The position numbers and the translations under genes were made by a program. A stretch of DNA of 36,061 bases from a virus, in the IMG/VR virus record IMGVR_UViG_3300009149_003930, positions 1 through 36,061 of that record; one strand, given 5' to 3'. Shown piece by piece: positions 1,131-35,280 of this stretch. Within the stretch, counting starts at the first letter, position 1. Every line of letters starts with the position of its first letter. The notes under the pieces were generated by a model. That model was given only the letters and a program-made list of their open reading frames with translations. It had not been told where the DNA came from and did not search any database.

Positions 1131-1153
1131 AAACCTACTTTCATAAACCTACT
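1131..1153 (-). promoter_or_regulatory. Two GTAGGTTT elements before nrdG
   Basis: Copies at 1131-1139 and 1145-1153 read AGTAGGTTT on the coding strand. The first ends four bases before the nrdG ATG, where a ribosome site would lie; the second contains the TAG stop of the upstream small gene. Confidence 0.6.
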
Positions 1154-1289
1154 CCAAAGAAGTAAGTTGTTCATTCTTGTTTTCCCAAACATCTCCCCTA
1201 GGAAGAGATTCTGTTAGCCTCTTCCTCATAGCTCGAAGTCTTCTGGCCAGAAGGTCTTGAATGAGGGTAGGAAGAGGAAGATCAGTCAT
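1149..1289 (-). CDS. Small hypothetical protein (46 aa)
   Basis: A 46-residue frame starts MTDLPLPTLIQDLLARRL and ends in NEQLTSLE. Its ATG overlaps the TGA of the HNH gene (ATGA) and is preceded by AGGAG nine bases upstream, which supports translation. It is basic in the middle, with no recognised domain. Its TAG stop lies inside a copy of the GAGTAGGTTTAT element, and a second copy separates it from nrdG. It may be the gene that originally followed sbcC, before the endonuclease gene inserted; that is inference. Confidence 0.5.
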   Translation of the reverse strand: MTDLPLPTLIQDLLARRLRAMRKRLTESLPRGDVWENKNEQLTSLE

Positions 1290-2160
1290 GCTTTGGGTCT
1301 CCTGATTATCTCTATCTCTTCATTTTGAGCTTGAAGTTTCCTGTCTCTCTGAAAGTCCTGAAAGTATGAAGTCCAGTATTTCCTTCTTCCATTTGTCTTC
1401 ATATGGCATCTATGGCAGAGAGTTATTAGATTCCAAGGATCATTGTTCTTCTTGTTGTAATCTATGTGATGAACATCAGGAAGCTTTCCATTTCCACTTC
1501 CTTCTCCACACAATTGACAGATATGACCATCTCGTTCTCTGATTCTTTCTTTGAGAATGTTGTTGAACTCAAGGCTATACTCTTCAGAGGAAATTCCTCC
1601 TTTCCAATTTGGATTGAGATTTCCAAATTGATCTGGATGATTATCTCTCAATTTCTGCTTGTGATCTTCAGAAAGATGTTTGCCAAAGAAGGGATGATTT
1701 TCACCAGCCTGAAGCCCTATATGAGACTCGGAACACTTTTTCTTAGTGTCTTCAGACATAGGAACTCCCCGTCGAGAAGATGGCTTTCCGTACACAGGAT
1801 TATTCTCCCCTTGTTGCGTACAGAAGCATCTTGTTTCCACTTCTTTGTATGCTTATGACCATAAAAAGGAGCTAACTCTCTAGTCATCCCATATATAGGA
1901 TTGTTCTCACCAGACATACGTCGTGAATGTTCTTGTTTCCACTCTTTGGTATGGCATTTGCCTAAATGGGCTTCACTATTCTTTATTTTAGCTTCTTCTG
2001 TATGATGTTTGCCAAAGAAGGGATTGCTCTTTCCTTCCACACGCTCAGAAGCATCTTGTTTCCACTTCTTTGTATGCTTATGACCATAAAAAGGATTGTT
2101 CATCCCAATCCTTTTTCCAGACATCTTGGCTTTAGTTTCCTCTGTATGATGCCAGCTCAT
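1286..2160 (-). pseudogene. NUMOD3-repeat HNH homing endonuclease, interrupted by a frameshift
   Basis: Two overlapping frames together make one homing endonuclease of about 291 residues. The upstream frame (from 2160) holds repeated blocks such as NNPFYGHKHTKKWKQ and SNPFFGKHHTEE, typical of the NUMOD3 DNA-binding repeats. The downstream frame continues them (ENNPVYGK, ENHPFFGKHLSEDH) and ends with an HNH nuclease: CQLCGEGS, PDVHHIDYNKKNND, NLITLCHRCH. The frames join at a C4 run at 1807-1810: one extra base there (G5 on the coding strand) restores KGENNPVYGK. The deletion may be a real mutation or a homopolymer sequencing error. Free-standing homing endonucleases commonly sit beside phage nrd genes, as here. 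The gene starts ten bases after the sbcC stop, so it probably rides on the same transcript. Confidence 0.85.
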
Positions 2161-2169
2161 TCCTATCTC

Positions 2170-4059
2170 TCAATTCTCTGAACACAATAACCTAGATATC
2201 CCCTGCTCCTTCACTGCAGTCCAACATTTTGAGAAGAGCTGCTGGAATGCTGAATTATGGGTCACAACTAGTAAAGTTCCCACTTGCTTGGCTTCTTCTC
2301 TTAGTAGATTTACAAGCCGCTCTGCTCCTATGGAATCTACATTATCCAGAACTTCATCTAGGGCTAGGAACTCAAAACCTCCTCGACCCCTCTGCAAAGC
2401 GACACGCCTCAAAGCAAAGAGAATTATGTGGTCTATCCTGGCCTTCTCCCCTTTGGAAATGGCCTTGTATTCAGGGCCTCCTTGAGGATTTGTAACCGAC
2501 AAGCTTAACTTCCTCCGAGATTCTTTGGAAGCTAACTGTGTTGTAGATGAGAAGGACACTTTTAATCTAGAGTCAGTCAATTTGGCTGAATAATGTCCTG
2601 ACCACTTATTTAAGGCTCCAATCATTCTCTCAAGGACATAAGAACGTATCCCAGTATTTCCAAAGGCTACTTCCCAATACCTAAGAGCCGGAAGCCATTC
2701 CTCAATTTCTGCTATTCCTGAATCATAGGATTGATCAGCCTTTCGGAGCATTTCAAGCTTAGCCTTTGCCTCTGCAGCTTGTCTGATATAATATGTCCTG
2801 TTGTTCTCTACTCGTTCTAGTTCTTTTGTCTTAGATACATAGTCCGAACGCCAGGACTCTTGCTGCCTAGCTGATTCTTTGAGTTTGTCTATCTGTCTCC
2901 TAATAATTGAAATTTGTTCCTCTACATGAGACAATTGAGATTCCTTGTCTTTTTGCATCTTCTCAAGACTCTGGAATCTTCTTTCCAAATCTTGTAAATT
3001 AGTTTCCACAAGAGAGATTTTTGATTGAAGATCATAATGATCTTTTGTAAGAAGCTTTGTAATCTTCCGAACATCTTTAGATTCAATAGGTCTGAGACAA
3101 ACAGGACAGTCCCCTTGAAGGGTCTGAGCATCATCAATCTTCTGGGTGATAATCTGCTGTTGCTTATCCAACAAACTCCACTCAGAGTTCTTGGCTCGTA
3201 AATCACCGTTGACTGTTTTGACTCGATCAGAAGTTTTCTTGATGCCCTCTTTCAACACTCGTTGTTCTTGTAGTAAACTAGATTCTTTTAGACTTTCCTT
3301 GGAAACATCAACCTCAGTAACCTTCCTGGTATTGCTTATCTGTCTCTTAAATTGACGAACAACTCTTGCCAGATCATCCCGAACCTCTGTCTCTTCTGTG
3401 AGTTTGGACATCATGTCTTGAAGGATTTCCTCTGTGTCCTCTATCCTCTGAACCTGTCCATCTTTTTGGGAGTGAAGCAACTCTCTAGAGGTCAAAAACT
3501 CTCTCAAGCCTTTCCGAACCTCTGAGAGATTTGATGAAAAATCTGGTAGAGATAACAGGCTCTCAAGGATGTCCTTCTGTTCCTTGTCTGTCGCTGCCGC
3601 TATGAGGGTTATTCTGTCTTCTCCCAAGACGACTGTATTGAGGAAAACTTCCCACGTGACCCCCATAAGTTGTTCTAAAAGAGTCTGAGTCTCCTTAATA
3701 GTTCCGAGGGTTAGAGATTTCTCATCCCTCTGCAAGAGGAGGGTTGTTCCGAACTCAGGGTCTGACCTATACCTGTCTACTATGATCCGACGCCCGTCCG
3801 GGCAAAGGAGGCCAAGAGACCCGTGACAGGATTTCTCACCTTGTCGAACAATAGAGTTACCCGTGATTCCCCTCATTGTCCTTCCAAATAGTGTCCAGCA
3901 TATAGGCTCCAACAAAGCCGATTTACCAGACCCGTTGGAGGAGGAGAAACCCGAGTCTCTGTTCTCTCCAGTTATTAGCACTAAGCCTTGGTCCTTGAGA
4001 TTGACATCCAGAGTCTCATAGCTGAGAATGTTTTCTGCTCGTAGGTATTCAATCTTCAT
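2170..4059 (-). CDS. SbcC/Rad50-like (T4 gp46-like) recombination ATPase subunit
   Basis: This is a 629-residue SMC-like ATPase. The Walker A motif SNGSGKSALLE is at about 41-51. Long heptad-rich coiled-coil arms flank a zinc hook, GDCPVCLRPIES. The C-terminal half carries the signature AISKGEKARIDH, Walker B with D-loop (FEFLALDEVLDNVD) and the switch histidine in LLVVTHN. With the SbcD/gp47 subunit it forms a nuclease complex that resects double-strand ends for recombination-dependent replication. The ATG at 4059 overlaps the last 11 bases of sbcD and has AGGGAG upstream; the reading frame extends 31 codons further up, but that part only shadows sbcD. It is shorter than bacterial SbcC (about 1,000 residues) and close to T4 gp46 in size. 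Confidence 0.92.
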   Translation of the reverse strand: MKIEYLRAENILSYETLDVNLKDQGLVLITGENRDSGFSSSNGSGKSALLEPICWTLFGRTMRGITGNSIVRQGEKSCHGSLGLLCPDGRRIIVDRYRSDPEFGTTLLLQRDEKSLTLGTIKETQTLLEQLMGVTWEVFLNTVVLGEDRITLIAAATDKEQKDILESLLSLPDFSSNLSEVRKGLREFLTSRELLHSQKDGQVQRIEDTEEILQDMMSKLTEETEVRDDLARVVRQFKRQISNTRKVTEVDVSKESLKESSLLQEQRVLKEGIKKTSDRVKTVNGDLRAKNSEWSLLDKQQQIITQKIDDAQTLQGDCPVCLRPIESKDVRKITKLLTKDHYDLQSKISLVETNLQDLERRFQSLEKMQKDKESQLSHVEEQISIIRRQIDKLKESARQQESWRSDYVSKTKELERVENNRTYYIRQAAEAKAKLEMLRKADQSYDSGIAEIEEWLPALRYWEVAFGNTGIRSYVLERMIGALNKWSGHYSAKLTDSRLKVSFSSTTQLASKESRRKLSLSVTNPQGGPEYKAISKGEKARIDHIILFALRRVALQRGRGGFEFLALDEVLDNVDSIGAERLVNLLREEAKQVGTLLVVTHNSAFQQLFSKCWTAVKEQGISRLLCSEN

Positions 4060-5161
4060 TACTAGAACTCCCTTCTTTGTACCCTTGAGATACCTCTTCC
4101 AGAAAACCTGAGTAGAAGGATGATCGTCGGACAAAATCCAAATACTCTCCATCTATTTCCCCATTTGGAGGGACAATCTTTAAATACTCAATTACAATTT
4201 CATCTGTTGAGAGATCAGCAGAGATACCTATTTCCTCTTCTGATAAATTGACATCTGAAGTGTCTCCAACTCCTATAACATCTACACCTAATGCTCCCCT
4301 CTTCAGGAGAGTCCGTCTAACTGTTGCTACTTGGTCTTGGTCAGATATTTCTACTCTGACAAACTGATTTTCCACATCAGACGTATTGATCTCATCCTCT
4401 GAGATAACTTTGAATCCTCCAATCTCTACTGGAACAGGAATTGATTTTACTGAGAATCTCCCATCTCTGGTAGTATGCAATAGGATCACTCGTTTCCTCT
4501 GTTCACACTCTCCAAAGTTTTGCTGGATAGGTGAACCTACATACACTACATTCTTAGAGAGTTTCTGGGGTGTGTGATAATCTCCTAAGAACACATAATC
4601 AAAATCCTCTGCTCGGAGGGCCTTCAGAGGAACACCCTCTTGACTGAGGTAGTCAGAAGGTCCCATCTTCCCACCAATGACTGATAAATGGCCTATCAGG
4701 AAGTGTAAACCTTTGCCACTTTGAGCTTTGGAAGCCATCCTTTCGATGGTTTGATCTACAGTTTGTACAAAAGGATTGTAGGGCACAAAATGGAAATAGA
4801 CATTCTTGTCAACCTTAGATACAAGAGTTTTGGGTTGTAAAACTACTTGTGTTTTGTGTGCAAATACCTGGAGACTACTTACTTCTCCAACTTGGTCTAG
4901 TTGATCATGTTGCCCAGCTAGAATAGTTACAGGAACTATTTTAGTAAGATTGTGTATAAACTCGAAGCCCAGGAGCAAAGGTTCAACCCCAATGCTTGAT
5001 CGTGAGTGCCAGTAGTCCCCGGCTACAATTACCTGATCTACTTTGTGAAAGTTTACTTGTTCCAAAAACCATTTGAAGAACTCATTAAGCATTCGGAGAC
5101 GTTCATACCCAAACTGTGGGTATCTATGTATATGGAGATCTGCAAGGATGAGAGTTTTCAT
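4049..5161 (-). CDS. SbcD/Mre11-like (T4 gp47-like) nuclease subunit
   Basis: A 370-residue calcineurin-like metallophosphoesterase. The metal-binding motifs appear in order: ADLHIH (8-12), AGDYWHSR (47-54), AGQHDQ (82-87), IGHLSV, and FLGDYHTPQ. The third motif reads GQHD where the family normally has GNHD; this Asn to Gln change touches a metal and phosphate ligand and could alter activity. It pairs with the SbcC-like ATPase encoded directly downstream (11-base overlap) and trims double-strand ends in recombination. A C-terminal region rich in acidic residues follows the catalytic domain. The upstream gene ends two bases before its ATG. Confidence 0.92.
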   Translation of the reverse strand: MKTLILADLHIHRYPQFGYERLRMLNEFFKWFLEQVNFHKVDQVIVAGDYWHSRSSIGVEPLLLGFEFIHNLTKIVPVTILAGQHDQLDQVGEVSSLQVFAHKTQVVLQPKTLVSKVDKNVYFHFVPYNPFVQTVDQTIERMASKAQSGKGLHFLIGHLSVIGGKMGPSDYLSQEGVPLKALRAEDFDYVFLGDYHTPQKLSKNVVYVGSPIQQNFGECEQRKRVILLHTTRDGRFSVKSIPVPVEIGGFKVISEDEINTSDVENQFVRVEISDQDQVATVRRTLLKRGALGVDVIGVGDTSDVNLSEEEIGISADLSTDEIVIEYLKIVPPNGEIDGEYLDFVRRSSFYSGFLEEVSQGYKEGSSSNED

Positions 5162-5163
5162 GT

Positions 5164-5613
5164 CTATTCTTCTTTCACTGCTTCAAGGACAACCTTCAGC
5201 TTGTCAATAGCCATGTAAATATCCCTGGTGTTTCTCTTCTCAACAACTTCCTTTGCTGCCTCAAGCAGCCGGTCTTTCTGATCTTCTACTCTCTCAGTCT
5301 CAATAGGTGGAAGTCCTCCTGCATCTAGAGGCTGATTGTCATCTTTCACATAATCTGTCATCCTCTTCTCCTTCTCATTGGCACTAGATTTAGATATTAT
5401 TGTAGTATCCTCTTTGATTCCCTTACTCTTCATGATTTTGTCTCGGCATTTGGTCGAACAGCAGCGTATCAAGTTCACTGGGTCGAACCAGTTGGTCAAG
5501 TGGTAGCAGCCTTCACAATAGTAAGGGATAGGACTATGGAACATAACCGGGTCTGTCCCGACTGGTGTCTCGGCCCCCACGGGGATGCTAGGATACATAT
5601 TATTGAACTTCAC
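5164..5613 (-). CDS. Hypothetical protein with a Cys-rich zinc-ribbon-like segment (149 aa)
   Basis: I do not recognise this protein. Residues 30-60 contain YYCEGCYH followed by RCCSTKCRD, giving a CxxC...CCxxxC pattern that may bind zinc. The C-terminal half is charged and helical, ending in a run that reads like an amphipathic helix (YMAIDKLKVVLEAVKEE). The ATG overlaps the TGA of the exonuclease gene upstream (ATGA), and the TAG stop sits just before sbcD, so it belongs to the recombination operon. A role with the exonuclease or the SbcCD-like pair is suggested only by position. Confidence 0.75.
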   Translation of the reverse strand: MKFNNMYPSIPVGAETPVGTDPVMFHSPIPYYCEGCYHLTNWFDPVNLIRCCSTKCRDKIMKSKGIKEDTTIISKSSANEKEKRMTDYVKDDNQPLDAGGLPPIETERVEDQKDRLLEAAKEVVEKRNTRDIYMAIDKLKVVLEAVKEE

Positions 5614-6539
5614 AACCTCAAGTCTCCCACAGGATTAGTCATTCCAGAAAAGGCTTCTCGCCATGCATTGAACGAGACAATTACACTTGCAAATTGATAT
5701 TTTTCACAAAGACTCTTGAAGGCTCCCAAGTCTGGAGACACCCATTCAACTTCTGAAAGAGCATGTTTCGCCTTCTCAACAATCTTTGCCTCACAACCTA
5801 ATCTCATTAAATGGATATTTCTAAGGATATCATATCGACCAATATGGATCTTTTTCACAGCGGTCTGAACACGTTTGGGGACAGTATCATCCGGTTTAGC
5901 TTCCAGGATCTTACTCAAAGTCTTGTAGTGCCCAATAACAGCCTTGGCCGTTATTTTTCCAACTCCTTGGATCCCAGGTATAGAATCTGAGGTATCTCCA
6001 ATCAGGAGCCTACTCAGGAAATACTGGGCGGGGGTCTGTTCCAATTCCTTTTTGATCAACTCAGGAGTGTAAAGACGCTCCCTTATAGGATGGAACAGAA
6101 ATACTCTACTATTCACCAATTGAACAAAGTCCAAGTCATTGGAAATTATTATGACTTTGTCAGCAGTAGAATGAGATGCTTCAGCAATAATGTCATCAGC
6201 TTCTACTCCTCGTTCCATAGCAGATGCAACTCCGATCAGAGACAGTGCTTTTTGTAATATACCAAGCTGAGATATGAACACAGCAAAATCGTCTTTTTCC
6301 CCTTTGTGGCGTTCTCTCCTTCCAGACTTGTAACCTGGATATATTCTCATCCTGTCTTCTGAACGTCCTATATCCCAAGTCATTAAGACAGAATTGGGCT
6401 GGAAGTCTTCTACAAGGGATTTTACCATCCGGAGGGTCCCATAGACTACTTCTACCCGTTGGCCTTGTGAAGTAGTGAGCATGGGGATCGATTTCCAGGC
6501 CCTGAATGCTAGATTTGTCCCATCTATTACAAGTTTCAT
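5610..6539 (-). CDS. 5'-3' exonuclease / flap endonuclease (PIN and H3TH domains)
   Basis: A 309-residue protein of the FEN family (Pol I 5' nuclease, T5 D15, T4 RNase H). It begins MKLVIDGTNLAFRAW with the first metal-binding Asp; VEADDIIAEA and ISNDLDFVQL carry the central acidic residues; LIGDTSDSIPGIQGVGKITA supplies the remaining Asp residues and the helix-3-turn-helix that grips DNA. It removes RNA primers and flaps from Okazaki fragments. The polymerase encoded at 9736-12324 lacks this domain, so the separate enzyme completes the set. I chose the ATG at 6539 (AAGGA upstream) over an in-frame TTG three codons earlier. Confidence 0.92.
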   Translation of the reverse strand: MKLVIDGTNLAFRAWKSIPMLTTSQGQRVEVVYGTLRMVKSLVEDFQPNSVLMTWDIGRSEDRMRIYPGYKSGRRERHKGEKDDFAVFISQLGILQKALSLIGVASAMERGVEADDIIAEASHSTADKVIIISNDLDFVQLVNSRVFLFHPIRERLYTPELIKKELEQTPAQYFLSRLLIGDTSDSIPGIQGVGKITAKAVIGHYKTLSKILEAKPDDTVPKRVQTAVKKIHIGRYDILRNIHLMRLGCEAKIVEKAKHALSEVEWVSPDLGAFKSLCEKYQFASVIVSFNAWREAFSGMTNPVGDLRL

Positions 6540-6552
6540 TTGCCTCAATCCT

Positions 6553-15026: not shown

Positions 15027-16383
15027 TGTTTTGTCTCTCCTCCCTGCTATAATTACGGCCAAAGCAATCTGGACGATGGCCATATAACAAATTCATGTAT
15101 TCCCTGTATTTGGGAAATCGTTCCTGGATCACCGGGTCTTTCCACAAGCCCTGTCTCCCTTTTTTCTTTGATCGAGACAAGAACTCAATAGCTGCCCAAG
15201 TTAGATCACAATTAGGCATCTCTATGAGAACTCTAACCAGATCCTCTTTAGTATCCCACAAGAACCGATTCTCAGATGACTTATGGATTTCCCACAACAA
15301 AAACATCTTGGCAAAAATTGACCAAGTGCCAAACTCATTAGTCATTTCCAATAATTCTGGGATGGATAGATCTGAATCCGTTCTGTCATCAGGCTCGTCA
15401 TGCTTTCTGAACTTGGCAAGTTCCCTCAGTCCCTGAGCCCAATGTACCAACTTGAACAATTGTCCAGAATCATAGAGAAAATACTGACTTATTGGAGGAA
15501 TCTTCCCTGGAAGAAGGACTTTACCTTTGAACAGTCCCTCTTGAGGCACTGGAAATGGAACTAAGAGTCGGCATAAGTCGTCTTGCCTTCCTGCACACAA
15601 TGGATTAGTAACATCTAAAATCTCTTGGACACGATTATCCATCTGGGAGTAATAGTGACTACTTCCTAAAAGGACAGTAAGATGGCCTGTCAAAACCTTT
15701 TCCCCAGCAAACTTTTCAATATATGGAGCCAATATTCTTGTCAATAGAGCCCAAAAAGAAACATTCACTCCAGTCAAACCCCAGACAAAATCTGAGCTGC
15801 GAATTGTAACCATGCAGTGGAGATGGTATAAACCTACTGTATCTTTGCGGACAAGGAACTGAAACCAATCATTGCATGGAATATCCTTGGACTGACAGTT
15901 GTCCAGAGCCGGATCGAAGATTACTCCTACTGCTCGCCTTGTGTAAAGGTCTTCATGCAACCTTTCCAAAATGGCTTTGAATTGATCTAACCCATCACCA
16001 TCTTTGTCAAAGAAACTGTACAAGTTCACAGGAGTGCGTCCCCAATTCCTTAGTCTTGGCCCATAACCTCCACGCCAGACCGTCCCATCGTCAGAGAAAT
16101 CAGTTGCTTTTGGGAGATAATGTGTTAACCAAGCTATGTCATTTCGACCTGAGAGAACCCACAAGCACTCTGCTACCGTTGCAAAGATGTTATTCCTTCT
16201 TTCAGGAAGTATGTAGATTGCCTTGTCAACTAGAATGGAGAATGATAGTCCTAAGATCTCTTTGGTCTGTTGTCCCCTAACAGAGAGGCTGAGGCCTCTC
16301 TCCCGGATGAGAGAGAGGCCCTGACCCAATAGAGACAGGCCATCTATTGCTTCAATGCTCCTGTCTGAAATAGGAAGGATCAT
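15019..16383 (-). CDS. Thymidylate synthase / pyrimidine hydroxymethylase family enzyme with long C-terminal extension
   Basis: Residues 45-250 match the thymidylate synthase fold: AECLWVLSG (Glu), WRGGYGPRLRNWG, TRRAVGV, the nucleophile in DIPCNDWFQF (C170), RSSDFVWGLTGVN with Arg195, Ser196, Asp198 and Asn207, and GSSHYY with the late His/Tyr pair. The residue after the catalytic Cys is Asn, where most synthases have His. Asn207 suggests a dUMP rather than dCMP substrate, since dCMP hydroxymethylases carry Asp there. The protein has about 200 residues beyond the core, helical and of unknown role; typical enzymes have 264-320 residues in total. It could make dTMP or 5-hydroxymethyl-dUMP; the sequence alone does not decide. 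It overlaps both neighbours. Confidence 0.82.
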   Translation of the reverse strand: MILPISDRSIEAIDGLSLLGQGLSLIRERGLSLSVRGQQTKEILGLSFSILVDKAIYILPERRNNIFATVAECLWVLSGRNDIAWLTHYLPKATDFSDDGTVWRGGYGPRLRNWGRTPVNLYSFFDKDGDGLDQFKAILERLHEDLYTRRAVGVIFDPALDNCQSKDIPCNDWFQFLVRKDTVGLYHLHCMVTIRSSDFVWGLTGVNVSFWALLTRILAPYIEKFAGEKVLTGHLTVLLGSSHYYSQMDNRVQEILDVTNPLCAGRQDDLCRLLVPFPVPQEGLFKGKVLLPGKIPPISQYFLYDSGQLFKLVHWAQGLRELAKFRKHDEPDDRTDSDLSIPELLEMTNEFGTWSIFAKMFLLWEIHKSSENRFLWDTKEDLVRVLIEMPNCDLTWAAIEFLSRSKKKGRQGLWKDPVIQERFPKYREYMNLLYGHRPDCFGRNYSREERQNND

Positions 16384-17959: not shown

Positions 17960-18850
17960 TTAAAATTCGGCGGAAGAATCTTCTTTTTCTTTTTGAAGAA
18001 TGCTCTTGATTCTCTTAACATGCTCTCGATATTGGCGATCTGACAAGGGTTTACGTCTAAAGATTTGACGGCCTAGGAGTCCTATGATTGTTAATCTCAC
18101 TGAATCATTAGGAGCCTTCAAATACAAGGTAACTACAGCATTGTTGTTGTCAAAGGTTTCTTCTGGACTAGTGTTGTATGCATCCATCAATCTATCCACA
18201 ATGGACTCTTCTGTTCCAGAGCAAGGGTATTCAAAGGTATGACCACTGCGGATAAGATACCTAAGCGATGGAGGCACAAAAAAACATGAAAAGGTTGAAC
18301 GATCGTCTGATGAACAAGGATTGTGCTTTTTGTTTCTGTCCACCTTTCTTACTACATCTAAACAAACGTTCTTGAAGCATGTCCGAATAAACTTGACTCG
18401 TTCTGCTGATGGAATTGCTTGTATACGTTCCCACTTGCTAATAATCATTTCACATCCTTGTTGAACAAGATCATCTGAATCTATACTAATGTCATGCAGA
18501 GAAAACTTCTTTGAGTCCTGTTGAAGAAAAGGCAAAACTGTTGTAATTGTCTCTTTGAGTTCATCTCTTTGGGAATTTGTCTTGCTTGTGCATCGCAGCA
18601 AAAATTTCCTATCACAAGGTTCCTTCAACTGGGGGTCATGTATTGTCTCTTTGAAATTTTCTTTTTTGAAATTTTCCTCGCGGGCGCCCGTTATTGGCGT
18701 AGCCAATTCCTTCCTTACGGAAGGAGTAACTATATTCTTATTAGTATTAATATAACCATGATTAATAAGATCTAGAATATCTAGAGGGGGTGTGAGGGGG
18801 GGTTTTTTTGTATGGGACTTAGGAGAATTTACAAGAGTATGGGATTTCAT
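17960..18850 (-). CDS. Possible sigma-like transcription factor (296 aa)
   Basis: A 296-residue protein with a Pro/Lys/Thr-rich N-terminus (about 1-80) that looks disordered. The middle, DSDDLVQQGCEMIISKWERI then KFIRTCFKNVCLDVVRKVDR, resembles sigma-70 region 2 (DLIQEG...KFxTYxxxxIRxxxxDxxRK). The C-terminal part, LSDRQYREHVKRIKSILQKE, could be a DNA-binding helix pair but is not a clear region 4. This is an inference from pattern; a replication accessory factor is the alternative, since it lies directly after the primase gene. GGAG lies about ten bases before the ATG. If it is a sigma factor, the repeated GAGTAGGTTTAT elements would be candidate promoters. Confidence 0.42.
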   Translation of the reverse strand: MKSHTLVNSPKSHTKKPPLTPPLDILDLINHGYINTNKNIVTPSVRKELATPITGAREENFKKENFKETIHDPQLKEPCDRKFLLRCTSKTNSQRDELKETITTVLPFLQQDSKKFSLHDISIDSDDLVQQGCEMIISKWERIQAIPSAERVKFIRTCFKNVCLDVVRKVDRNKKHNPCSSDDRSTFSCFFVPPSLRYLIRSGHTFEYPCSGTEESIVDRLMDAYNTSPEETFDNNNAVVTLYLKAPNDSVRLTIIGLLGRQIFRRKPLSDRQYREHVKRIKSILQKEKEDSSAEF

Positions 18851-19780: not shown

Positions 19781-19786
19781 CTCTAC

Positions 19787-19808
19787 AAACCTACAGTATA
19801 AACCTACT
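19787..19808 (-). promoter_or_regulatory. Two GTAGGTTT elements before the primase gene
   Basis: Copies at 19787-19795 (TGTAGGTTT) and 19800-19808 (AGTAGGTTT) fill the 31-base gap between helicase and primase. No other Shine-Dalgarno sequence is present. Confidence 0.6.
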
Positions 19809-19811
19809 CAC

Positions 19812-23476: not shown

Positions 23477-25656
<2,180 letters not shown>

Positions 25657-26404: not shown

Positions 26405-26595
26405 CTTTTGATCTCCCAATTGTTCTTTCTAAACCTACTACTTAGCAAACCTACGAGAAGAGAAAAGGTTTCCATCTTTTTCTGTTCCAAGTTTCTGATC
26501 TCCCACATAAACCTACTATGTAAACCTACTCTTGCTGATACTATTGTTTCCCATATGTTTCCCACATGTCTCTCCTGATGAATCAAGTCTTGTGC
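26405..26595 (-). promoter_or_regulatory. Intergenic element patch: four GTAGGTTT copies plus one AAACC-N15-GGTTTCC block
   Basis: This gap of 191 bases holds element copies at about 26432-26440, 26448-26456, 26509-26517 and 26523-26531 (plus strand AAACCTACT or AAACCTACG). A bipartite AAACC-N15-GGTTTCC block lies at about 26448-26474. A near-identical block of about 45 bases recurs at 32256-32300. A 61-codon frame across it is composed mostly of the elements and is not credible as a gene. A role in transcription start or translation control is inference. Confidence 0.5.
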
Positions 26596-26829
26596 TCATG
26601 TCAATGCTTTTGCATCAGCGTTTAACACAGCCTCCATACCATCTGAGGTTAGTCGCACCATAGCAAAGGGGATTCCATAGTCCCCACGTCCTACATCAAC
26701 TGCTGTAAGAAGATCACGTCTGACAAGAGAACGAAATGTCCGTCTGTCAAACTTGCCTTCAAGTGTCCGTTCTCCTGGCATGTAGAATCGTAACAGCCGA
26801 ATCTGTCTTTCGTTTAACTGCTTTGCCAT
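26596..26829 (-). CDS. Possible winged-helix protein (77 aa)
   Basis: A 77-residue basic protein. LNERQIRLLRFYMPGERT, FDRRTFRSLVRRDLL and MVRLTSDGMEAVL follow the helix-helix-recognition helix-strand-wing order of winged-helix DNA-binding domains. If so it is a small transcription regulator. GGGAG precedes the ATG, which lies inside the end of the upstream 44-residue gene. The winged-helix call is by pattern only. Confidence 0.6.
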   Translation of the reverse strand: MAKQLNERQIRLLRFYMPGERTLEGKFDRRTFRSLVRRDLLTAVDVGRGDYGIPFAMVRLTSDGMEAVLNADAKALT

Positions 26830-26948
26830 TCTTCATCTCCCATAAACCTACTCCCTCCAAAATCTTCAGTTTGAATCAAAACTGTCTTACCATCAGAGTA
26901 TGTTAGCAAGTAACCACCATAATGATCCTCAACAAATACTGTTGTCAT
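26814..26948 (-). CDS. Small hypothetical protein (44 aa)
   Basis: A 44-residue frame, MTTVFVEDHYGGYLLTYSDG onward, with AGGAG five bases before the ATG and an ATGA overlap with the gene upstream. It looks like a small beta protein. Near its end a GAGTAGGTTTATG element is translated (GGSRFM), so here the element lies inside a coding region but still just before the next start codon. It overlaps that next gene by 16 bases. Confidence 0.6.
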   Translation of the reverse strand: MTTVFVEDHYGGYLLTYSDGKTVLIQTEDFGGSRFMGDEEWQSS

Positions 26949-27208
26949 TTGTTCTCCTCATGTATAGCACAGTAGAATGTGGAGTAGTATCCTTCTTCGT
27001 AGGATGTGTTGTAGTACTCAAAATTGGCAACCCATTGGTCAAAGGAGTAGTTATTGTCCTCCTCTGAAGGGATGTGTGTAATCCCTGGATGCCAAGGAGA
27101 TTCAATATCCATTTTGCTTGCTACAACTGTGATTGGTATCTTGCGCCACAATTTGCGGGCAGTTGTCTTGGACAACCTCTTGAATTTGCCTGGGTAATGA
27201 TCAATCAT
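26945..27208 (-). CDS. Hypothetical protein (87 aa)
   Basis: An 87-residue protein with a basic N-terminus (KFKRLSKTTARKLWRKIPI) and an acidic, Tyr-rich C-terminus (FEYYNTSYEEGYYSTFY). GAGG lies before the ATG and both ends overlap neighbours by four bases, so it is part of a coupled set of small genes. Not recognised. Confidence 0.72.
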   Translation of the reverse strand: MIDHYPGKFKRLSKTTARKLWRKIPITVVASKMDIESPWHPGITHIPSEEDNNYSFDQWVANFEYYNTSYEEGYYSTFYCAIHEENK

Positions 27209-27546
27209 AGGTCTTTCCTCAAGGATTTGATGAGATAATCTAGAGTGTTTATAACTATTAATACTGTCTGTTTTTCTTTAGATCTCAGACAAGCATCAAA
27301 ATTCTTGAAGGTTTGAGTCATCTTAGGTATGCCACGATCAACCCAAGATGCCAGTTTGTTACGGTTGTGTCTAGCAAGGTGATTAGCCCTCTCTATGTCA
27401 TCCTGTATGAGATCTGATTCTTCTCTGTCCCAATGATCCATTGAAATACCCATATCCATATCCTTGTCTTTCTCCATGTTGTTAGGGATAGCTAAGCCTA
27501 AGCCTCTAATGACCTTTTCTCCTGATATCTTATGGACAAGTTTCAA
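27205..27546 (-). CDS. Hypothetical protein (113 aa), source of a duplicated fragment
   Basis: A 113-residue charged helical protein that starts at a TTG (KLVHKISGEKVIRGLG); no ATG is available before an in-frame TGA. Its first 17 codons and the end of the preceding gene are repeated at 33722-33815, where the copy is cut short. The middle is rich in Asp and Met (KDKDMDMGISMDHWD). Function unknown. Confidence 0.66.
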   Translation of the reverse strand: MKLVHKISGEKVIRGLGLAIPNNMEKDKDMDMGISMDHWDREESDLIQDDIERANHLARHNRNKLASWVDRGIPKMTQTFKNFDACLRSKEKQTVLIVINTLDYLIKSLRKDL

Positions 27547-27565
27547 TCCTCTAGTAGGTAGTTGT

Positions 27566-27703
27566 TTAGTTTCTCAAGGGTATAATCAAAACACGTCCTC
27601 GTTGATCGTAGAGAGTTTTATTGCTAGGATATAAAGTAGCTTCAAGATTGCTATCCAGCCTTCCCAGTTTGACATAATATATGTTCATTGTATCATCATC
27701 CAT
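27566..27703 (-). CDS. Small hypothetical protein (45 aa)
   Basis: A 45-residue frame starting MDDDTMNIYYVKLGRLDSN and ending in GRVLIIPLRN. Its ATG overlaps the last codons of the upstream gene (ATGGATGA), suggesting translational coupling rather than an own ribosome site. The frame is open for 39 codons further up, where it shadows that gene. Not recognised. Confidence 0.5.
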   Translation of the reverse strand: MDDDTMNIYYVKLGRLDSNLEATLYPSNKTLYDQRGRVLIIPLRN

Positions 27704-27923
27704 TTGAGCGTTGTCCAGCCTGATAAGCACACACATAAATCTCACACTCTCGAACTGTCTGAACTGTGAACACATCGCCACCTTCAGTGTGAATGTCAAA
27801 TGACATTCCCAAGGTATCAAACTGCCACTTCATGGTTAGACCATCATAGTGCTTTAGGATTTCAGTAATCCTTTCCGCCACTCTGCGTTGCTTGTCACTC
27901 ATTGTTACTAAAGCCATTGTCAT
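27696..27923 (-). CDS. Hypothetical protein (75 aa)
   Basis: A 75-residue protein starting MTMALVTMSDKQRRVAERIT, with AGAGG close before the first ATG. An internal Met (MSDKQ) is an alternative start. The first half is helical and the second half beta (FDIHTEGGDVFTVQTV). It could form one unit with the overlapping 45-residue gene. Not recognised. Confidence 0.62.
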   Translation of the reverse strand: MTMALVTMSDKQRRVAERITEILKHYDGLTMKWQFDTLGMSFDIHTEGGDVFTVQTVRECEIYVCAYQAGQRSNG

Positions 27924-27963
27924 GTGTCCTCTACATTAACTGTTTTAGCTACCATCATCAGGC

Positions 27964-28005
27964 CTTGGTCACTACACCAAGACAATGGGAGCATAAGCTC
28001 CCATT
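27964..28005 (-). terminator. Twin hairpins after the 79-residue gene
   Basis: Two perfect inverted repeats stand in the 88-base gap: a 6-bp stem at 27964-27981 and a 9-bp stem (AATGGGAGC/GCTCCCATT, four-base loop) at 27984-28005. The second begins seven bases after the stop codon of the upstream gene. No T-run follows on either strand, so it may be a weak terminator or a processing or stabilising hairpin. Confidence 0.4.
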
Positions 28006-28011
28006 TCGGGA

Positions 28012-28707: not shown

Positions 28708-28717
28708 AGTACCCTCC

Positions 28718-28951: not shown

Positions 28952-28982
28952 CTGTCTGTCCTCCATTTATAGATTGTTAGAT

Positions 28983-29291: not shown

Positions 29292-29309
29292 TTCATAGGT
29301 CCTCCATTG

Positions 29310-29564: not shown

Positions 29565-29596
29565 TTACATACCTCCTTTCATTTTAGACTGTATAT

Positions 29597-29812: not shown

Positions 29813-29835
29813 AATGTCTCCTCTCACACTATAGG

Positions 29836-30036: not shown

Positions 30037-30037
30037 C

Positions 30038-30226: not shown

Positions 30227-30235
30227 TGTGTCTCC

Positions 30236-30785: not shown

Positions 30786-31051
30786 GTTGTCAGTTCCTCT
30801 GGATAGGCAGCTTTAAACATTGGCAATCTTCCAGTTGATGCAAAGTAATTGAGAATCCTTGCCAATTCCTTGGCCTCTTCTTTCCGGATGAGACAATAGG
30901 TAATTCCCGTATGAATCTCTAAGTCCACACTGGATTTGATGCTACCAATTCGCCAATCTCTTGTTTCCTTCAAGAGAATGTTGTAATCAATTGTAGGTGT
31001 CTTGATCTTGATCCGACGGCGGCTTGTTCTGTCTTCTCCATATCTCAGCAT
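30782..31051 (-). CDS. Hypothetical protein (89 aa)
   Basis: An 89-residue protein with a basic start (GEDRTSRRRIKIKTPTI) and a helical C-terminus (LIRKEEAKELARILNYF). GAGGAG precedes the ATG, which overlaps the end of the gene upstream. Not recognised. Confidence 0.68.
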   Translation of the reverse strand: MLRYGEDRTSRRRIKIKTPTIDYNILLKETRDWRIGSIKSSVDLEIHTGITYCLIRKEEAKELARILNYFASTGRLPMFKAAYPEELTT

Positions 31052-31197
31052 TGTGTCTCCTCATCTTCATCTTCATCATCATCGAAAGTATCGTCAAACC
31101 AACAGGATTTACAATACTCTCCATGCTCTCCATATCCCTCGCCTTCCATTATTGTGCGGCCACAACCAACACAATCTCTCATCTGTCTTACTCTCAT
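31045..31197 (-). CDS. Small zinc-finger-like protein with acidic tail (50 aa)
   Basis: A 50-residue frame with GGAGG seven bases before the ATG. RDCVGCGRTIMEGEGYGEHG followed by YCKSCW gives a four-Cys zinc-finger pattern; the tail is almost all Asp and Glu. Its TGA overlaps the next start. An internal Met (MRDC) is an alternative start. Confidence 0.75.
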   Translation of the reverse strand: MRVRQMRDCVGCGRTIMEGEGYGEHGEYCKSCWFDDTFDDDEDEDEETQC

Positions 31198-31245
31198 CCT
31201 ATGTCCTCCACAGGTATAGGTGTTTTGTCGTGCGTTAGTCTGTCG

Positions 31246-31404
31246 TTATTGATTGAGTTCTAATAACTCGGCTTCTGTATAGAACAGACAATGTGCGCCG
31301 CAGACTGGGCAGAGCTCATCGTTCTCTGTTATGAGTTCTTGTGCCGACGCATTCTCAAACCTTTGTCCACACTGATTGCAAATGTAACCCCCGCCGTTAT
31401 ACAT
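31246..31404 (-). CDS. Small zinc-ribbon protein (52 aa)
   Basis: A 52-residue frame: YICNQCGQRFENASA and then ELCPVCGAHCLFY give two cysteine pairs typical of a zinc ribbon. GGAGG lies ten bases before the ATG. It ends in TAA. It is part of the run of small metal-binding proteins here. Confidence 0.78.
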   Translation of the reverse strand: MYNGGGYICNQCGQRFENASAQELITENDELCPVCGAHCLFYTEAELLELNQ

Positions 31405-31418
31405 CTGTCTAACTCCTC

Positions 31419-31601
31419 CTATTTGTGTTGCTTGTTAACGTTAAGTGATATAGCGATGCCCTTGTGCTCAGGCACGGGCAGAAATCCTCTTGTTGTTGCT
31501 ATTATCAATGTCTTGCCACTCTTCGACGGCCCACTGCTGAGGGTGAGATCAACTGTGATTGTCAATGTGTCATCCTTGACACTCATCTTGATGTTGTCCA
31601 T
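31419..31601 (-). CDS. Small conserved-looking phage protein (60 aa)
   Basis: The 60-residue protein contains DTLTITVDLTLSSGPSKSGK then TLIIATTRGFLPVPEHKGIA, a compact beta protein of a type I associate with small phage proteins of unknown function. GGAGGTGATACACA precedes the ATG. It ends in TAG, which overlaps the ribosome site of the next gene. Confidence 0.72.
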   Translation of the reverse strand: MDNIKMSVKDDTLTITVDLTLSSGPSKSGKTLIIATTRGFLPVPEHKGIAISLNVNKQHK

Positions 31602-31644
31602 TGTGTATCACCTCCTCTCTTTCCTTCCATAGTTCCTGATTGTA

Positions 31645-31998
31645 TCACAGAGGCAAAGGATAATAAATTCCATCCTTTTCCACTAAATCTGACTTGAAGA
31701 CTGCTTCTCCACAACCGTCAATGGAGAAAGAGACATCTGGCTCACCATGGCCATTGATCTCAGGATAGATCCTTACATAGGAACCAGCCTTGACCTGGAT
31801 TACTACATCTCCAAGATCAATAGTGACAACTCTCTTGGGTTTACCTACACCAAGATCAATCGCCTTCAACGGAAACTTCTCCTCACATACACCACAAAGT
31901 GTTGAATTGTCCTGCGTAGGGAATTCCCTACCACATTTGTCACACGTGCGTGTCCTGAACCGCCTTGGGTCTGGACCTTCTCTTCTAATCATTGCCAT
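31645..31998 (-). CDS. Hypothetical zinc-finger protein (117 aa)
   Basis: A 117-residue protein. TCDKCGREF with TLCGVCEEKF forms a CxxC...CxxC zinc ribbon; the rest is beta-rich (RVVTIDLGDVVIQVKAGSYV) and ends in YYPLPL. GGAGG eight bases before the ATG at 31998 sets the start; the frame continues 20 codons further into the gene upstream. Confidence 0.72.
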   Translation of the reverse strand: MAMIRREGPDPRRFRTRTCDKCGREFPTQDNSTLCGVCEEKFPLKAIDLGVGKPKRVVTIDLGDVVIQVKAGSYVRIYPEINGHGEPDVSFSIDGCGEAVFKSDLVEKDGIYYPLPL

Positions 31999-32054
31999 CT
32001 TAGTTTCCTCCGTGTACCTATTTGAAATTTTCTTCGCGAAATCAGAAAAGAGTT

Positions 32055-32225
32055 TCAAACTCTCCTCGATGTGGTGAAGCTCGTCTTCGTTAGCGAATCC
32101 GAATTGTCCTTCCCCAGTCGCTTCTGCCCAGCCCTTCGTCGAGCTTTCGAGATTTCTTCCAAAAGTCGAAGAAGTCGGTCTTTTGCCACCTTTCGGATTT
32201 CTGTCATAATCGGATGTTCAGACAT
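32055..32225 (-). CDS. Small basic helical protein (56 aa)
   Basis: A 56-residue frame with GGAGGACAGGTGA before the ATG, reading MSEHPIMTEIRKVAKDRLLR then LLEEISKARRRAGQK. Codons are CGA/TCG-rich, unlike most neighbours and like the genes at 34-36 kb. An alternative frame over its second half (FANEDELHHIEESLKLFSDF) is also protein-like and runs into the next gene, so a frameshift here cannot be excluded. Confidence 0.5.
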   Translation of the reverse strand: MSEHPIMTEIRKVAKDRLLRLLEEISKARRRAGQKRLGKDNSDSLTKTSFTTSRRV

Positions 32226-32550
32226 TCACCTGTCCTCCATGTGTTTTCATTTAACAAACCTACTTAGTAAACCTACGAGAAGAGAAAAGGTTTCCGCAAT
32301 CTTTCCTCTTACATAAATGGCATAATGGTAAATACAGACCTTCAATCTACTACTTGTAATGTACTGAAAGGTGAAGTATACATAATGGTAAATACTCCAC
32401 ATGAATTGGGGAACTTTCCCTATATGTCTCCAAGATCAATAGAGTCAAGAAAAACCTTCCTGTAAATACACATAAAAGTCTTGGAACTTGACAATGCACC
32501 ACATGTTGTGGAGCAAAAATTGAAAGTGTCTTTCTGTAATAAGTGGCGTG

Positions 32551-32622
32551 AATGTTCCAGATAATGTTCCAGATAATGTTCTAGATAATGTTCTAGATAA
32601 TGTTCCAGATGATGTTCCAGTT
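32551..32622. repeat. 12-bp direct repeat array, six units
   Basis: Units read AATGTTCCAGAT, with AATGTTCTAGAT as units 3 and 4 and a diverged GATGTTCCAGTT at the end. The array ends five bases before a TATAAT box on the plus strand. Iteron-like operator or origin sites are likely; the open frames across it (repeating LEHY) are artefacts. Confidence 0.9.
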
Positions 32623-32632
32623 TGTGTATAAT
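32603..32632 (+). promoter_or_regulatory. Candidate sigma-70-type promoter for the plus-strand gene
   Basis: A perfect TATAAT at 32627-32632, with TG two bases upstream (TGTGTATAAT), follows the repeat array; TTCCAG at 32603-32608 would serve as a poor -35 at 18-bp spacing. It points to the plus-strand frame at 32670. The -35 lies within the last repeats, so a repeat-binding protein could act on it. Confidence 0.45.
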
Positions 32633-32669
32633 CACATGTGGGGGACGGAGGGGACGGACACTGGAAATC

Positions 32670-32951
32670 ATGTGTGAAAAGAGTGTAATCCGCATTCTCT
32701 TCCAACAATGTGTGTATTTAGCCACAGTTTGGTTCTACTTCCCAGGGGTAAAGAAGACCCAAGTTGATTGTGTGTTTAGCCACAATGACGAGCTTTGGTC
32801 CTTTATTCCTAAATGGGTCCAGTTCTCCAGTCCCCATGACGCCCTTATGGATTTCCCATACATTGCTTTCATGATACTAGAAATCACAGTAGGTAACGAC
32901 GGGAAGTTGGCTGTTCATGTCTTTTTTCAAAAAGGGTCTAATTTTTCTTAG
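32670..32951 (+). CDS. Hypothetical plus-strand protein (93 aa)
   Basis: The only plausible plus-strand gene. From the ATG at 32670 it reads MCEKSVIRILFQQCVYLATV then WFYFPGVKKTQVDCVF ... HNDELWSFIPKWVQ ... ITVGNDGKLAVHVFFQKG, a soluble alpha/beta-looking sequence with varied codons; the opposite strand has no long frame here. The Shine-Dalgarno is weak (GGA). An in-frame TTG at 32622 could extend it. Its TAG converges on, and overlaps by a few bases, the stop of the next minus-strand frame. Not recognised. Confidence 0.5.
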   Translation: MCEKSVIRILFQQCVYLATVWFYFPGVKKTQVDCVFSHNDELWSFIPKWVQFSSPHDALMDFPYIAFMILEITVGNDGKLAVHVFFQKGSNFS

Positions 32952-33202
32952 ACTTCTAACGTATCTTTTAGAACTTTTTCTGCATGTCTAAACTTTTTCT
33001 CTTGAAGAGCTGCAATAATCACCTCTTCAAAACTGTCTCTGAAGATTTCCCGGCCAATAGAGATCAGGTCAGCCTGGTTTCCATCTGGCACTCTTACAAG
33101 ACAGTTCTTGATGTAATTACATAGAATTTCTCTGATATCATCCTTGACAGTCTCAACAACCAGTGCCAGGATGATTTTGTCTGTACTATAATCTTGTGTC
33201 TC
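32948..33202 (-). pseudogene. Hypothetical protein frame without a start codon (84 codons)
   Basis: An open frame with clear protein character: DYSTDKIILALVVETVKDDI, LISIGREIFRDSFEEVIIAA, then FRHAEKVLKDTLEV and TAA. AGGAG lies at its 5' end at the right distance, but codons there read ACA CAA GAT TAT, with no ATG, GTG or TTG. Either the start codon was lost, or a base or two is missing, or translation enters from the preceding gene: that gene's TAG, ten codons, a second TAG and this frame are all in phase. Helical; not recognised. Confidence 0.55.
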
Positions 33203-33213
33203 CTAAATTGAAG

Positions 33214-33237
33214 AGTGTCTTCCTTTAGGAAGACACT
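33214..33237 (-). terminator. Perfect 10-bp hairpin at the end of the 52-residue gene
   Basis: AGTGTCTTCC and GGAAGACACT pair perfectly around a four-base TTTA loop, starting within the TAG stop of the upstream gene. No T-run follows on either strand. It may end or stabilise the transcript, or serve as a processing site. Confidence 0.45.
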
Positions 33238-33394
33238 ATGAAAACTTTACTTGTAAAGTAAATTGAATCTTCTGTAAGTCATCAATTAGATTTGGGATGT
33301 GGATTAGTATCTCTGCCCTTTCCACCTTTGAGAGAGTCTGGAACATTTGAGCTCTGTTCAGTAATTCGCAGATTCTCTTCTGTCTTATGTTCAT
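33236..33394 (-). CDS. Small helical protein (52 aa)
   Basis: A 52-residue frame, MNIRQKRICELLNRAQMFQT onward, helical and amphipathic, with AAGGACA directly before the ATG. It ends in TAG inside a perfect hairpin. Not recognised. Confidence 0.62.
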   Translation of the reverse strand: MNIRQKRICELLNRAQMFQTLSKVERAEILIHIPNLIDDLQKIQFTLQVKFS

Positions 33395-33428
33395 TGTCCT
33401 TATGTGTGGGATAGCCTCTTGGAGAAAA

Positions 33429-33623
33429 TTACATACTTGGACTTTGTTTATCTTCTTCTCCTTTTATAAATGTAGAACTAAACCTACTCTGAAATCTACT
33501 GCTTGACTCCCTACGGGAGTTGAAGTCCCATTGAAGGTAGATGCCTGAACCATTACAGTCCACGCAGGTGTCTTCCTTAACCTTGCCTAAGCCCTTGCAT
33601 GTTGGGCAAGTTTCAACTTTCAT
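33429..33623 (-). CDS. DnaJ-type zinc-finger protein (64 aa)
   Basis: CPTCKGLGKVKEDTCVDCNG is a pair of CxxCxGxG motifs as in the DnaJ central domain, giving one zinc site; the rest is Ser/Arg/Phe-rich (RRESSSRFQSRFSSTF). It lacks a J domain, so it is not a co-chaperone by itself. CGGAG precedes the ATG. Confidence 0.72.
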   Translation of the reverse strand: MKVETCPTCKGLGKVKEDTCVDCNGSGIYLQWDFNSRRESSSRFQSRFSSTFIKGEEDKQSPSM

Positions 33624-33878
33624 CTTGGGGTCTCCGTAAATGTAGAGTTCTAACTTCTCTCATAAACCTACTCAGATAAACCTACTCAGATAAACCTACT
33701 CAGTCATTGAGACCTGAATGTCCTTTTCTCCTGATATCTTATGGATGAGTTTCAATCCTCTAGTAGGTAGTTGTTTAGTTTCTCATGAATCTAATCAAAA
33801 CTCCTCTCCGTTGATTCTCGTTGATAAACCTACTCCATTCTCCTTGTCCTGCGCATTGGTCTCAAAATCCTTTATGTC
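33624..33878 (-). promoter_or_regulatory. Non-coding patch: four GAGTAGGTTTAT elements and a duplicated gene fragment
   Basis: Three element copies stand in tandem with a 14-bp period (33664-33672, 33678-33686, 33692-33700), and a fourth lies at 33826-33834. Between them is the 94-bp copy of a gene junction from 27.5 kb. No credible gene is present. Confidence 0.6.
33722..33815 (-). repeat. Dispersed duplication of the 27513-27605 segment
   Basis: About 93 bases are shared with 27513-27605, covering the end of the 45-residue gene and the first codons of the 113-residue gene (KLIHKISGEKD). Here the frame stops after 19 codons, at a GAGTAGGTTTAT element. It is a broken remnant bounded by elements on both sides. 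Confidence 0.85.
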
Positions 33879-34223
33879 TTACAGAAGTTCGATCTTTCCG
33901 TCAATATTGAACGGATAGCGAGATCGGCCTTTTGCTGCAGACATGTCATAGTCTGGCAAGTCTTTATCAAGGCCAGGAATCTCTTTAGCGTCATAACCTG
34001 GAATTCGTTCAGCCTGGAATAGGAACTCAACAAGGTGACGACGATCTAGATAAAGACGATCTACTGCATAATTTGGCTCTTCGTTGATCTCGTCTGGAAC
34101 TCTCGCAAATTTGTTAATGAGTGAAAGACCACCGTTATCCCAAAAGCTTGCAAAGAGGTCACTATCAACAATATCAATCCGATATGGACCATCTCCAGAT
34201 TCTACTACATATTTCTTTTCCAT
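33879..34223 (-). CDS. Hypothetical protein (114 aa)
   Basis: A 114-residue soluble protein (MEKKYVVESGDGPYRIDIVD, FQAERIPGYDAKEIPGLD) with GGGAGG before its ATG. Beta-rich first half. It ends in TAA. Not recognised. Confidence 0.68.
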   Translation of the reverse strand: MEKKYVVESGDGPYRIDIVDSDLFASFWDNGGLSLINKFARVPDEINEEPNYAVDRLYLDRRHLVEFLFQAERIPGYDAKEIPGLDKDLPDYDMSAAKGRSRYPFNIDGKIELL

Positions 34224-34278
34224 TTTTCTTTCACCTCCCTTCTTTTCTTCAAAATAGACCTACTCCTGTAAAGTCTGT

Positions 34279-34473
34279 TCAGCTCTTGAAGAGGAAGCTC
34301 CTTCCCCCAATCGGTCCAAAATCTACACCATTTGGCCCGTATCGTCCAGGATCGTCTTCTTCGACGGCTTCCTGTTCTTCTGCTCGGGAGTTCGCAATTG
34401 TGCTTTCGTGAAGCTTCCTTGCACGTTCTCGAGCTTCTGCGACTTCTTGAGCAGAAAAGATTTTCTTGCCCAT
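34279..34473 (-). CDS. Small charged protein ending in IGGRSFLFK-type peptide (64 aa)
   Basis: A 64-residue protein with a helical N-terminus (KIFSAQEVAEARERARKLHE), an acidic middle and the end PIGGRSFLFKS. The last eight residues before the final Ser also end the neighbouring 34527 gene. GGAGG lies eight bases before the ATG at 34473. CGA/TCG-rich codons. Function unknown. Confidence 0.66.
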   Translation of the reverse strand: MGKKIFSAQEVAEARERARKLHESTIANSRAEEQEAVEEDDPGRYGPNGVDFGPIGGRSFLFKS

Positions 34474-34526
34474 TTGCTTGTCCTCCAAAACACTTTTGTG
34501 AAATAAACCTACTCTGAAATCCCTTC

Positions 34527-34922
34527 TCAGCGTTTGAAGAGGAAGCTCCTTCCCCCTATCTTTACCTCAAGGTCTCTCGAACCTTCGCCGAGTCCAACAA
34601 CTGCTTCTGTTTCTTCCTTCTGTCCTTTCCCGACAACTTGAAGGACTTCTGATAGGGGAAGGCAGAATGTCGTTACGATACTCAGCATCTCCCTCGCTTC
34701 CCCTCCCGTCTCAAATGTGCGGAGAACGAGGTATTCTGGCTCTCCTTTCACATTGTGGCCGATCTCCCATCCTGAAAGGACTTTTGGCTCTCTTCCCGTT
34801 CGGGGCAGAAGTTGGTCCATTACCCAGGTTGGAAGAAGATCGTGCCCTTCTGCAAAAGTCTCCAGAAGTTGGGCGATAGTTTCATCCGGTCTCATTTTCT
34901 TCATCTCCCTTCTTTCCTTCAT
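34527..34922 (-). CDS. Hypothetical protein ending in IGGRSFLFKR (131 aa)
   Basis: A 131-residue protein from the ATG at 34922 (GGAGG eleven bases upstream); an ATG at 34895 with GGGAG is an equally good start. It reads DETIAQLLETFAEGHDLLPT, EYLVLRTFETGGEAREMLS and ends VKIGGRSFLFKR, the same C-terminal peptide as the next gene. Codons favour CGA and TCT/TCG. Not recognised. Confidence 0.66.
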   Translation of the reverse strand: MKERREMKKMRPDETIAQLLETFAEGHDLLPTWVMDQLLPRTGREPKVLSGWEIGHNVKGEPEYLVLRTFETGGEAREMLSIVTTFCLPLSEVLQVVGKGQKEETEAVVGLGEGSRDLEVKIGGRSFLFKR

Positions 34923-34940
34923 TTCTGTAATGTCCTCCAA

Positions 34941-35280
34941 AATAGATCAATTTTCGAGCTCTTCTCGTCCCGAAAAATCCGAGAATCGAGAGAACCTTCC
35001 GAAAAGTAAACCCCCGGCGGGGAAAAAGGTTTCCGGTTTTCTTTTCTCCAAAATAAACCTACTCCTGAAGATTTTTGGAGATTTACAAAATAAACCTACT
35101 CTGAAATAATCTCCGAATTTACAGAATCGGTCGGCTTTCGGGGGTTTTCCGAATTTCCCAAAAAGGGGCCGAAGGGGCCAAAGGCGGACGGGGCCGAAGG
35201 GGCCAAAGGGGCCGAAGGCGGACGGGGCCAAAGGCGCTTCAAGGCGGACGGGGCCGAAGGGGCCAAAGGCGGACGGGGCC
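34941..35280 (-). promoter_or_regulatory. Non-coding region with elements, a GC-rich stem and a GGGGCCRAA array
   Basis: It holds two GAGTAGGTTTAT elements (35055-35063, 35092-35100), one AAACC-N15-GGTTTCC block (35008-35034) around a CCCCGGCGGGG-like stem, and the repeat array at 35165-35283. The 94-codon frame across it is made of repeats (GPFGPFGP) and elements, and I reject it. Confidence 0.55.

Follow-up and report, generated by a model that had tools for sequence, protein, structure and literature searches.

A recurrent 12-bp intergenic element in a single orientation on a contig of an uncultured bacterial virus, tentatively read as a single-box phage promoter

Dispersed control elements that keep one orientation are known from several phages. 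The stoperators of cluster A mycobacteriophages, which are the sites of the L5 repressor, number 23-36 and are 13 bp long (PMC3029335), and the start-associated sequences (SAS) of cluster K mycobacteriophages form a 13-bp asymmetric repeat of 11-19 copies, mostly in one orientation and upstream of gene starts, whose function is unknown (PMC3203893). Here we analyse a 12-bp element that recurs between genes of IMG/VR record IMGVR_UViG_3300009149_003930, a fragment from an uncultured bacterial virus whose 36,061 bases make up our entire window. On the coding (minus) strand the element reads GAGTAGGTTTAT. To judge from its sequence and placement it would join this known kind of element, and we tentatively put first the possibility that it is a single-box, phage-specific promoter.

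The element resembles the cluster A stoperators in being a short asymmetric site (12 bp, against about 13 bp) in about 20 or more copies (20 here), with one orientation (20:0) and a mostly intergenic or gene-end position (18 of 21 intergenic once an additional copy is counted). It differs from them in sequence and in its frequent tandem sets, and we identified no repressor and no temperate sign in the fragment. The SAS share with it copy number, orientation and a position upstream of starts; however, they are tied to translation starts and can in part pair with 16S rRNA, whereas 2 to 131 nt separate the last copy of our element from the start codon, and most leaders carry a separate GGAG. Phage-specific promoters offer a further comparison. 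The middle promoters of SPO1, a phage with distantly similar replication genes, depend on the gp28 sigma factor and consist of two boxes, AGGAGA and TTTNTTT; sites of this two-box type, with 16-19 nt between the boxes, number 0 on our coding strand. T4 MotA boxes are, like the element, short and set in one orientation, upstream of middle genes, but they need a -10 box about 12 bp downstream, which is not convincingly enriched here. T4-type early promoter/stem-loop cassettes place regulatory sequence at the joints between shuffled small genes, a position that the element shares, although no consistent stem-loop accompanies it.

The element is real and not a statistical accident. No 9-mer of the contig is more over-represented than GTAGGTTTA, flanked as (A)GTAGGTTTA(T) on the minus strand (17 found against 0.16 expected). 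The minus strand carries the 8-base core GTAGGTTT 20 times and the plus strand 0 times. With up to two mismatches allowed, the window has 19 matches where shuffles predict 3.0, and 0 of 100 shuffles reach 19. All 20 places listed in the original prediction do carry the element, with positions shifted by 1-2 nt, and 10 of them hold the exact 12-mer. In their alignment the core is invariant except for one T to C change (34264), the position after the core is A in 17 of 20, and the flanking positions on both sides are less conserved. Copies often stand in tandem, 12-16 nt from start to start, so that only about 12 independent places remain, 7 of them in 32-35.1 kb. The uniform orientation claimed earlier holds without exception for the core; since all accepted genes of our hand-made map (90% coding) lie on the minus strand, orientation relative to transcription is not separable from orientation relative to the genome.

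On this map 18 of the 21 copies fall between genes (P about 2e-16 counted by copy and 8e-9 counted by cluster). This upholds the predicted position between a stop and the next start, which is found for 18 of the 20 listed places, the exceptions (26842-26853 and 33478-33489) falling in the 3' ends of predicted upstream open reading frames (ORFs). The twenty-first copy, missing from the earlier list, is probably due to chance (Table 1). For 14 of the 21 copies a start follows within 60 nt, and most clusters stand at the head of a gene or packed gene group: nrdG-nrdD, the primase onward, the ligase/helicase operon and early-type small genes, the heads being the genes from 34922, several in 33.4-34.5 kb, and those at 32225, 26401, 19780 (primase) and 1127 (nrdG). 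Genes within packed operons are without the element. Six of the 12 clusters end 13-17 nt ahead of a GGAG-type ribosome site, which is a normal leader length, and the distance from last copy to start codon is not fixed. Before nrdG and primase the final copies lie almost at the ATG, and inspection of these leaders confirmed the earlier remark that neither gene has a classical ribosome site.

Where a gap precedes a gene, clear enrichment upstream is confined to the element, a leader word (GGAAACCT) found near some copies, and GGAGGAC, which is the Shine-Dalgarno (SD) sequence; gapped upstream regions that lack the element show no enriched word except the SD. Other promoter types are equally inconspicuous: sigma-70-like sites (TTGACA and TATAAT, 16-18 nt apart) are not enriched in the window (28 found against 28.8 expected from shuffles), and Bacteroidota-type promoters (TTTG with TAnnTTTG about 19 nt downstream) have 0 matches on the coding strand. 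A window of this kind should hold several promoters, the element is the only sequence candidate, and its orientation and leader geometry fit; for these reasons we put the single-box phage promoter first. The copies at 35.1 kb, which come after a strong terminator-like hairpin, also support it. On this model the element would be a compact transcription start signal read by a phage-modified or phage-encoded RNA polymerase, RNA would start just past its TTTAT end, with 5' ends at a fixed distance after GTAGGTTTAT, and the products would be short purine-rich leaders that bear the SD site. Both the RNA start at the element and its recognition by a phage factor are inferred from these sequence features.

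Several observations weigh against a promoter. No TTGACA within one mismatch lies upstream of the copies (0 of 20 sites), leaving them without a -35 partner, and TATAAT within two mismatches, 8-16 nt downstream, accompanies 10 of 20 copies against 31% at random, and 5 of the 12 last copies, so that such words are at most mildly above random and not convincing. Nor is there a convincing upstream word at fixed spacing: 4-mers and 5-mers occur as at random positions, and the best 6-mer is found at only 3 sites (nominal P 0.03), two of them supplied by a duplicated gene end. A few host promoters would escape these enrichment tests as too rare, and some genes with an upstream gap also lack the element (29564, 29291, 27923, 23102, 17920 and others). 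About half of the 12 clusters hold tandem copies at 12-16 nt, an unusual arrangement for a promoter. As the last nrdG copy lies 2 nt from the ATG, only the copy upstream of it could give a usual leader. Among the proteins scanned in the window none was recognised as an RNA polymerase, and the sigma-like protein at 17960, proposed earlier as the cognate factor, matches Sigma70_r2 (Pfam, E 0.0012) and sigma70-ECF (NCBIfam, E 0.0009) below the curated score cut-offs of both. It has no meaningful match in the PDB, and its predicted structure was discarded as unusable (predicted local distance difference test score, pLDDT, 41). What stands is a weak similarity to sigma region 2, by which the protein is a possible candidate partner of the element and not evidence for its function. 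Of the explanations offered in the original prediction, the phage-specific promoter is still the best fit, by virtue of the operon heads, the strict orientation and the lack of any other enriched promoter motif, although it comes without a second box and with a sub-threshold sigma factor. A bolder version strikes us as unlikely, namely that a new phage transcription system recognises GAGTAGGTTTAT and nothing else: a polymerase, or a divergent sigma factor such as perhaps the 17960 protein, would start RNA from a single, often tandem box and leave the nrdG and primase mRNAs almost leaderless.

The same geometry can be read at the level of RNA: copies transcribed into 5' leaders would bind a protein of phage or host, be cleaved, or make contact with the ribosome, and would thereby control translation or decay of the message downstream. 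We regard this as possible but doubtful. Every copy is on the sense strand, several lie 13-17 nt ahead of the SD, those of nrdG and primase (2 and 5 nt from the start) abut the start codon exactly where an SD is absent, and the loose tandem spacing has no phase with the DNA helix, as expected on flexible RNA; thus the RNA operator proposed earlier keeps part of its appeal. However, the leaders share no RNA fold and no consistent stem-loop with the element, the element is no more accessible than random positions (unpaired with a mean probability of 0.43, random positions with 0.46), the start codon lies at widely varying distances, and most operon-internal genes, which would be equally good targets, are without it. 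Two specific RNA partners were tried and dropped. Trans-pairing with the ACUACCUACU sequence of a duplication at 27.5/33.7 kb gave a 7-base complement only (4 words against 1.6 expected on the strand) and was unconvincing. Binding of the TRAP type came to mind from GAG/UAG triplets and an anti-TRAP-like match at 33429-33623; TRAP sites need triplets in a 2-3 nt register, the triplets here are off it, and no TRAP was seen. The product of 33429-33623 itself is a small Cys-rich, zinc-finger-like protein that weakly matches anti-TRAP, the DnaJ zinc finger and Q-like antiterminators.

A stoperator-like DNA site, at which a monomeric phage repressor blocks initiation or elongation in one orientation, seems to us rather unlikely. 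Size, copy number, single orientation and intergenic pattern are as reported for cluster A mycobacteriophages (PMC3029335, PMC9283540), and a tandem spacing of about the site length suits packed monomers. Yet neither an immunity repressor nor an integrase was recognised among the proteins scanned, the window being a fragment; the replication genes resemble those of lytic Herelleviridae, and there are no evident host promoters for such sites to act on. Improbable, in our view, is a recombination-prone regulatory cassette, in which duplication would have spread the copies as patches of homology where modules join, and any regulatory role would be secondary. Three dispersed duplications adjoin or contain copies (33717-33815 with 27508-27606, 34514-34560 with 34266-34312, and 32260-32295 with 26438-26473), which suggests that leaders are shuffled at the joints, perhaps as a side effect; to this extent the scattered recombination site of the original prediction has a basis, but as the primary function it is poorly supported. 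Flanks diverge around an invariant core, and the primase and nrdG copies lack duplicated flanks; the element itself thus seems to be under selection. A chance or low-complexity repeat without function is the least credible account; tandem sets could come from slippage, but enrichment and placement go far beyond the shuffles and refute it statistically.

The first of these duplications is 99 nt long and 89% identical, spans the leader and first codons of gene 27205-27546, and contains CTACCTACTAGAGGATTGAAAC. This word resembles the 3' half of some clustered regularly interspaced short palindromic repeats (CRISPR), and the duplication ends as some of these repeats do (GATTGAAAC). A CRISPR link was rejected: a search of 399 genomes from the phylum to which the metagenome-assembled genome holding L111 belongs gave no match, and the duplication overlaps a gene start.

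The searches for relatives returned distant ones only. Their replication proteins reach only about 20-43% identity to those of the window; the best relatives share up to nine of these proteins, at about 22-41%, and none of those retrieved with the RecA, polymerase and sigma-like protein as queries is enriched for GTAGGTTTA. In viral contigs, a DNA pattern for tandem elements gave 19 matches, apparently unrelated tandem repeats, many of them coding, and a pattern of the element plus GGAGG gave 41, none enriched and none close; a search with a leader 23-mer gave 0 matches, and blastn against phages and plasmids gave none. As no retrieved relative is enriched for it, the element is known only from this contig. 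An apparent match in L034 (GAGTCAGGTT/GAATCAGGTT, 26 copies) was set aside as a single local 12-nt tandem array. L112 and L184 carry dispersed words of their own, mostly upstream of genes (TTGACAA...GATATTAT and TATATTTGC, respectively), which by their sequence look like host-type promoters; dispersed intergenic words of such a kind can therefore be promoters, and both differ from the word in our window. On the plus strand of L112, dispersed TTGACAA...CGATATTAT words lie between 11790 and 19680 and are apparently the promoter word of that phage. L031 (6970-7160, 9618-9870 and 11496-11600; also L072) has period-36 arrays in which AGCGAGCCA alternates with AGAAACCCA, with 9-nt variable stretches between, and a possible reading of these is a protein repeat of 12 residues (ERAxxxKKPxxx).

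Table 1. Copies of the element and the sigma-like protein in the window, in order of position.
Position	Strand	Feature	Context
1129-1154	-	Two copies, 14 nt apart	Last copy 2 nt ahead of nrdG ATG; no SD
15828-15839	-	Additional (21st) copy	Inside thymidylate synthase-like gene
17960-18850	-	Protein with weak sigma-70 region 2 similarity; possible partner of the element	Profile matches
19786-19809	-	Two copies, 13 nt apart	Last copy 5 nt ahead of primase ATG; no SD
26429-26455	-	Two copies, 16 nt apart	In leader module also present at 32260-32295; heads 26.4 to 19.8 kb operon (NAD ligase, helicases)
26507-26531	-	Two copies, 13 nt apart	
26842-26853	-	Exact copy	Within 3' end of ORF 26814-26948, 13 nt ahead of start 26829
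32254-32277	-	Two copies, 13 nt apart	Head of early-type operon starting 32225
33478-33500	-	Copy (GAGTAGGTTTAG) and a degenerate one (AGTAGATTTC) 12 nt upstream	Within 3' end of ORF 33429-33623, ahead of probable ATA-started ORF 33236-33451
33662-33701	-	Three exact tandem copies, period 14	Upstream of gene 33429-33623
33824-33835	-	Exact copy	Ahead of truncated duplicate (33717-33815) of leader and start of gene 27205-27546
34254-34265	-	Variant copy (GAGTAGGTCTAT)	About 16 nt ahead of SD of gene 33879-34223
34503-34514	-	Exact copy	17 nt ahead of GGAGG of gene starting near 34474
35053-35101	-	Two exact copies, 37 nt apart	Heading long leader of gene starting 34922; after strong terminator-like hairpin 35324-35287

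The contig has no DNA-level match to phage isolates. It encodes a phage replication module comprising an NrdD fragment, NrdG, HNH endonucleases, SbcC- and SbcD-like proteins, an exonuclease, UvsX/RecA, a single-strand binding protein, a family A DNA polymerase, thymidylate synthase, primase, DnaB, an SF2 helicase and an NAD ligase. The closest named phages by DNA polymerase are Herelleviridae, at only 30% identity. Towards 36 kb many small unknown proteins follow, in an arrangement like the early region of large lytic phages. The NAD-dependent DNA ligase (23477-25656) is split: its two ORFs, 25081-25656 and 23477-25057, align with consecutive portions of a single ligase family model. ORF 33236-33451 has an AGGAG site but no well-placed start behind it other than ATA. 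An ORF-poor stretch of 722 nt, between a terminator-like hairpin at 33214-33237 and the element at 32277, holds a 12-nt unit (AATGTTCCAGAT) in tandem at 32539-32634, and the GC-rich end at 35158-36000, with 17-nt tandem repeats (GAAACTCCGTTTCGGGG) and GGCCGAAGGGGCCAAAGGCGGAC repeats, is unlike the remaining contig and perhaps represents a terminal repeat region. A type II hammerhead ribozyme (Rfam RF02276, 43.7 bits against a gathering score of 37) lies at 27943-28011 on the minus strand, in the gap ahead of the gene starting at 27923, and could cut a polycistronic mRNA there; published work places hammerheads, type II included, in phage and prophage regions (PMC3088659).

Should the element prove to be the phage's own promoter, the operon map of an uncultured lineage could be read straight from sequence, and a one-box transcription factor would be indicated. 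If it is instead an RNA or stoperator site, it would provide a further case, apparently outside the mycobacteriophages, for two poorly understood classes of dispersed, one-orientation elements.

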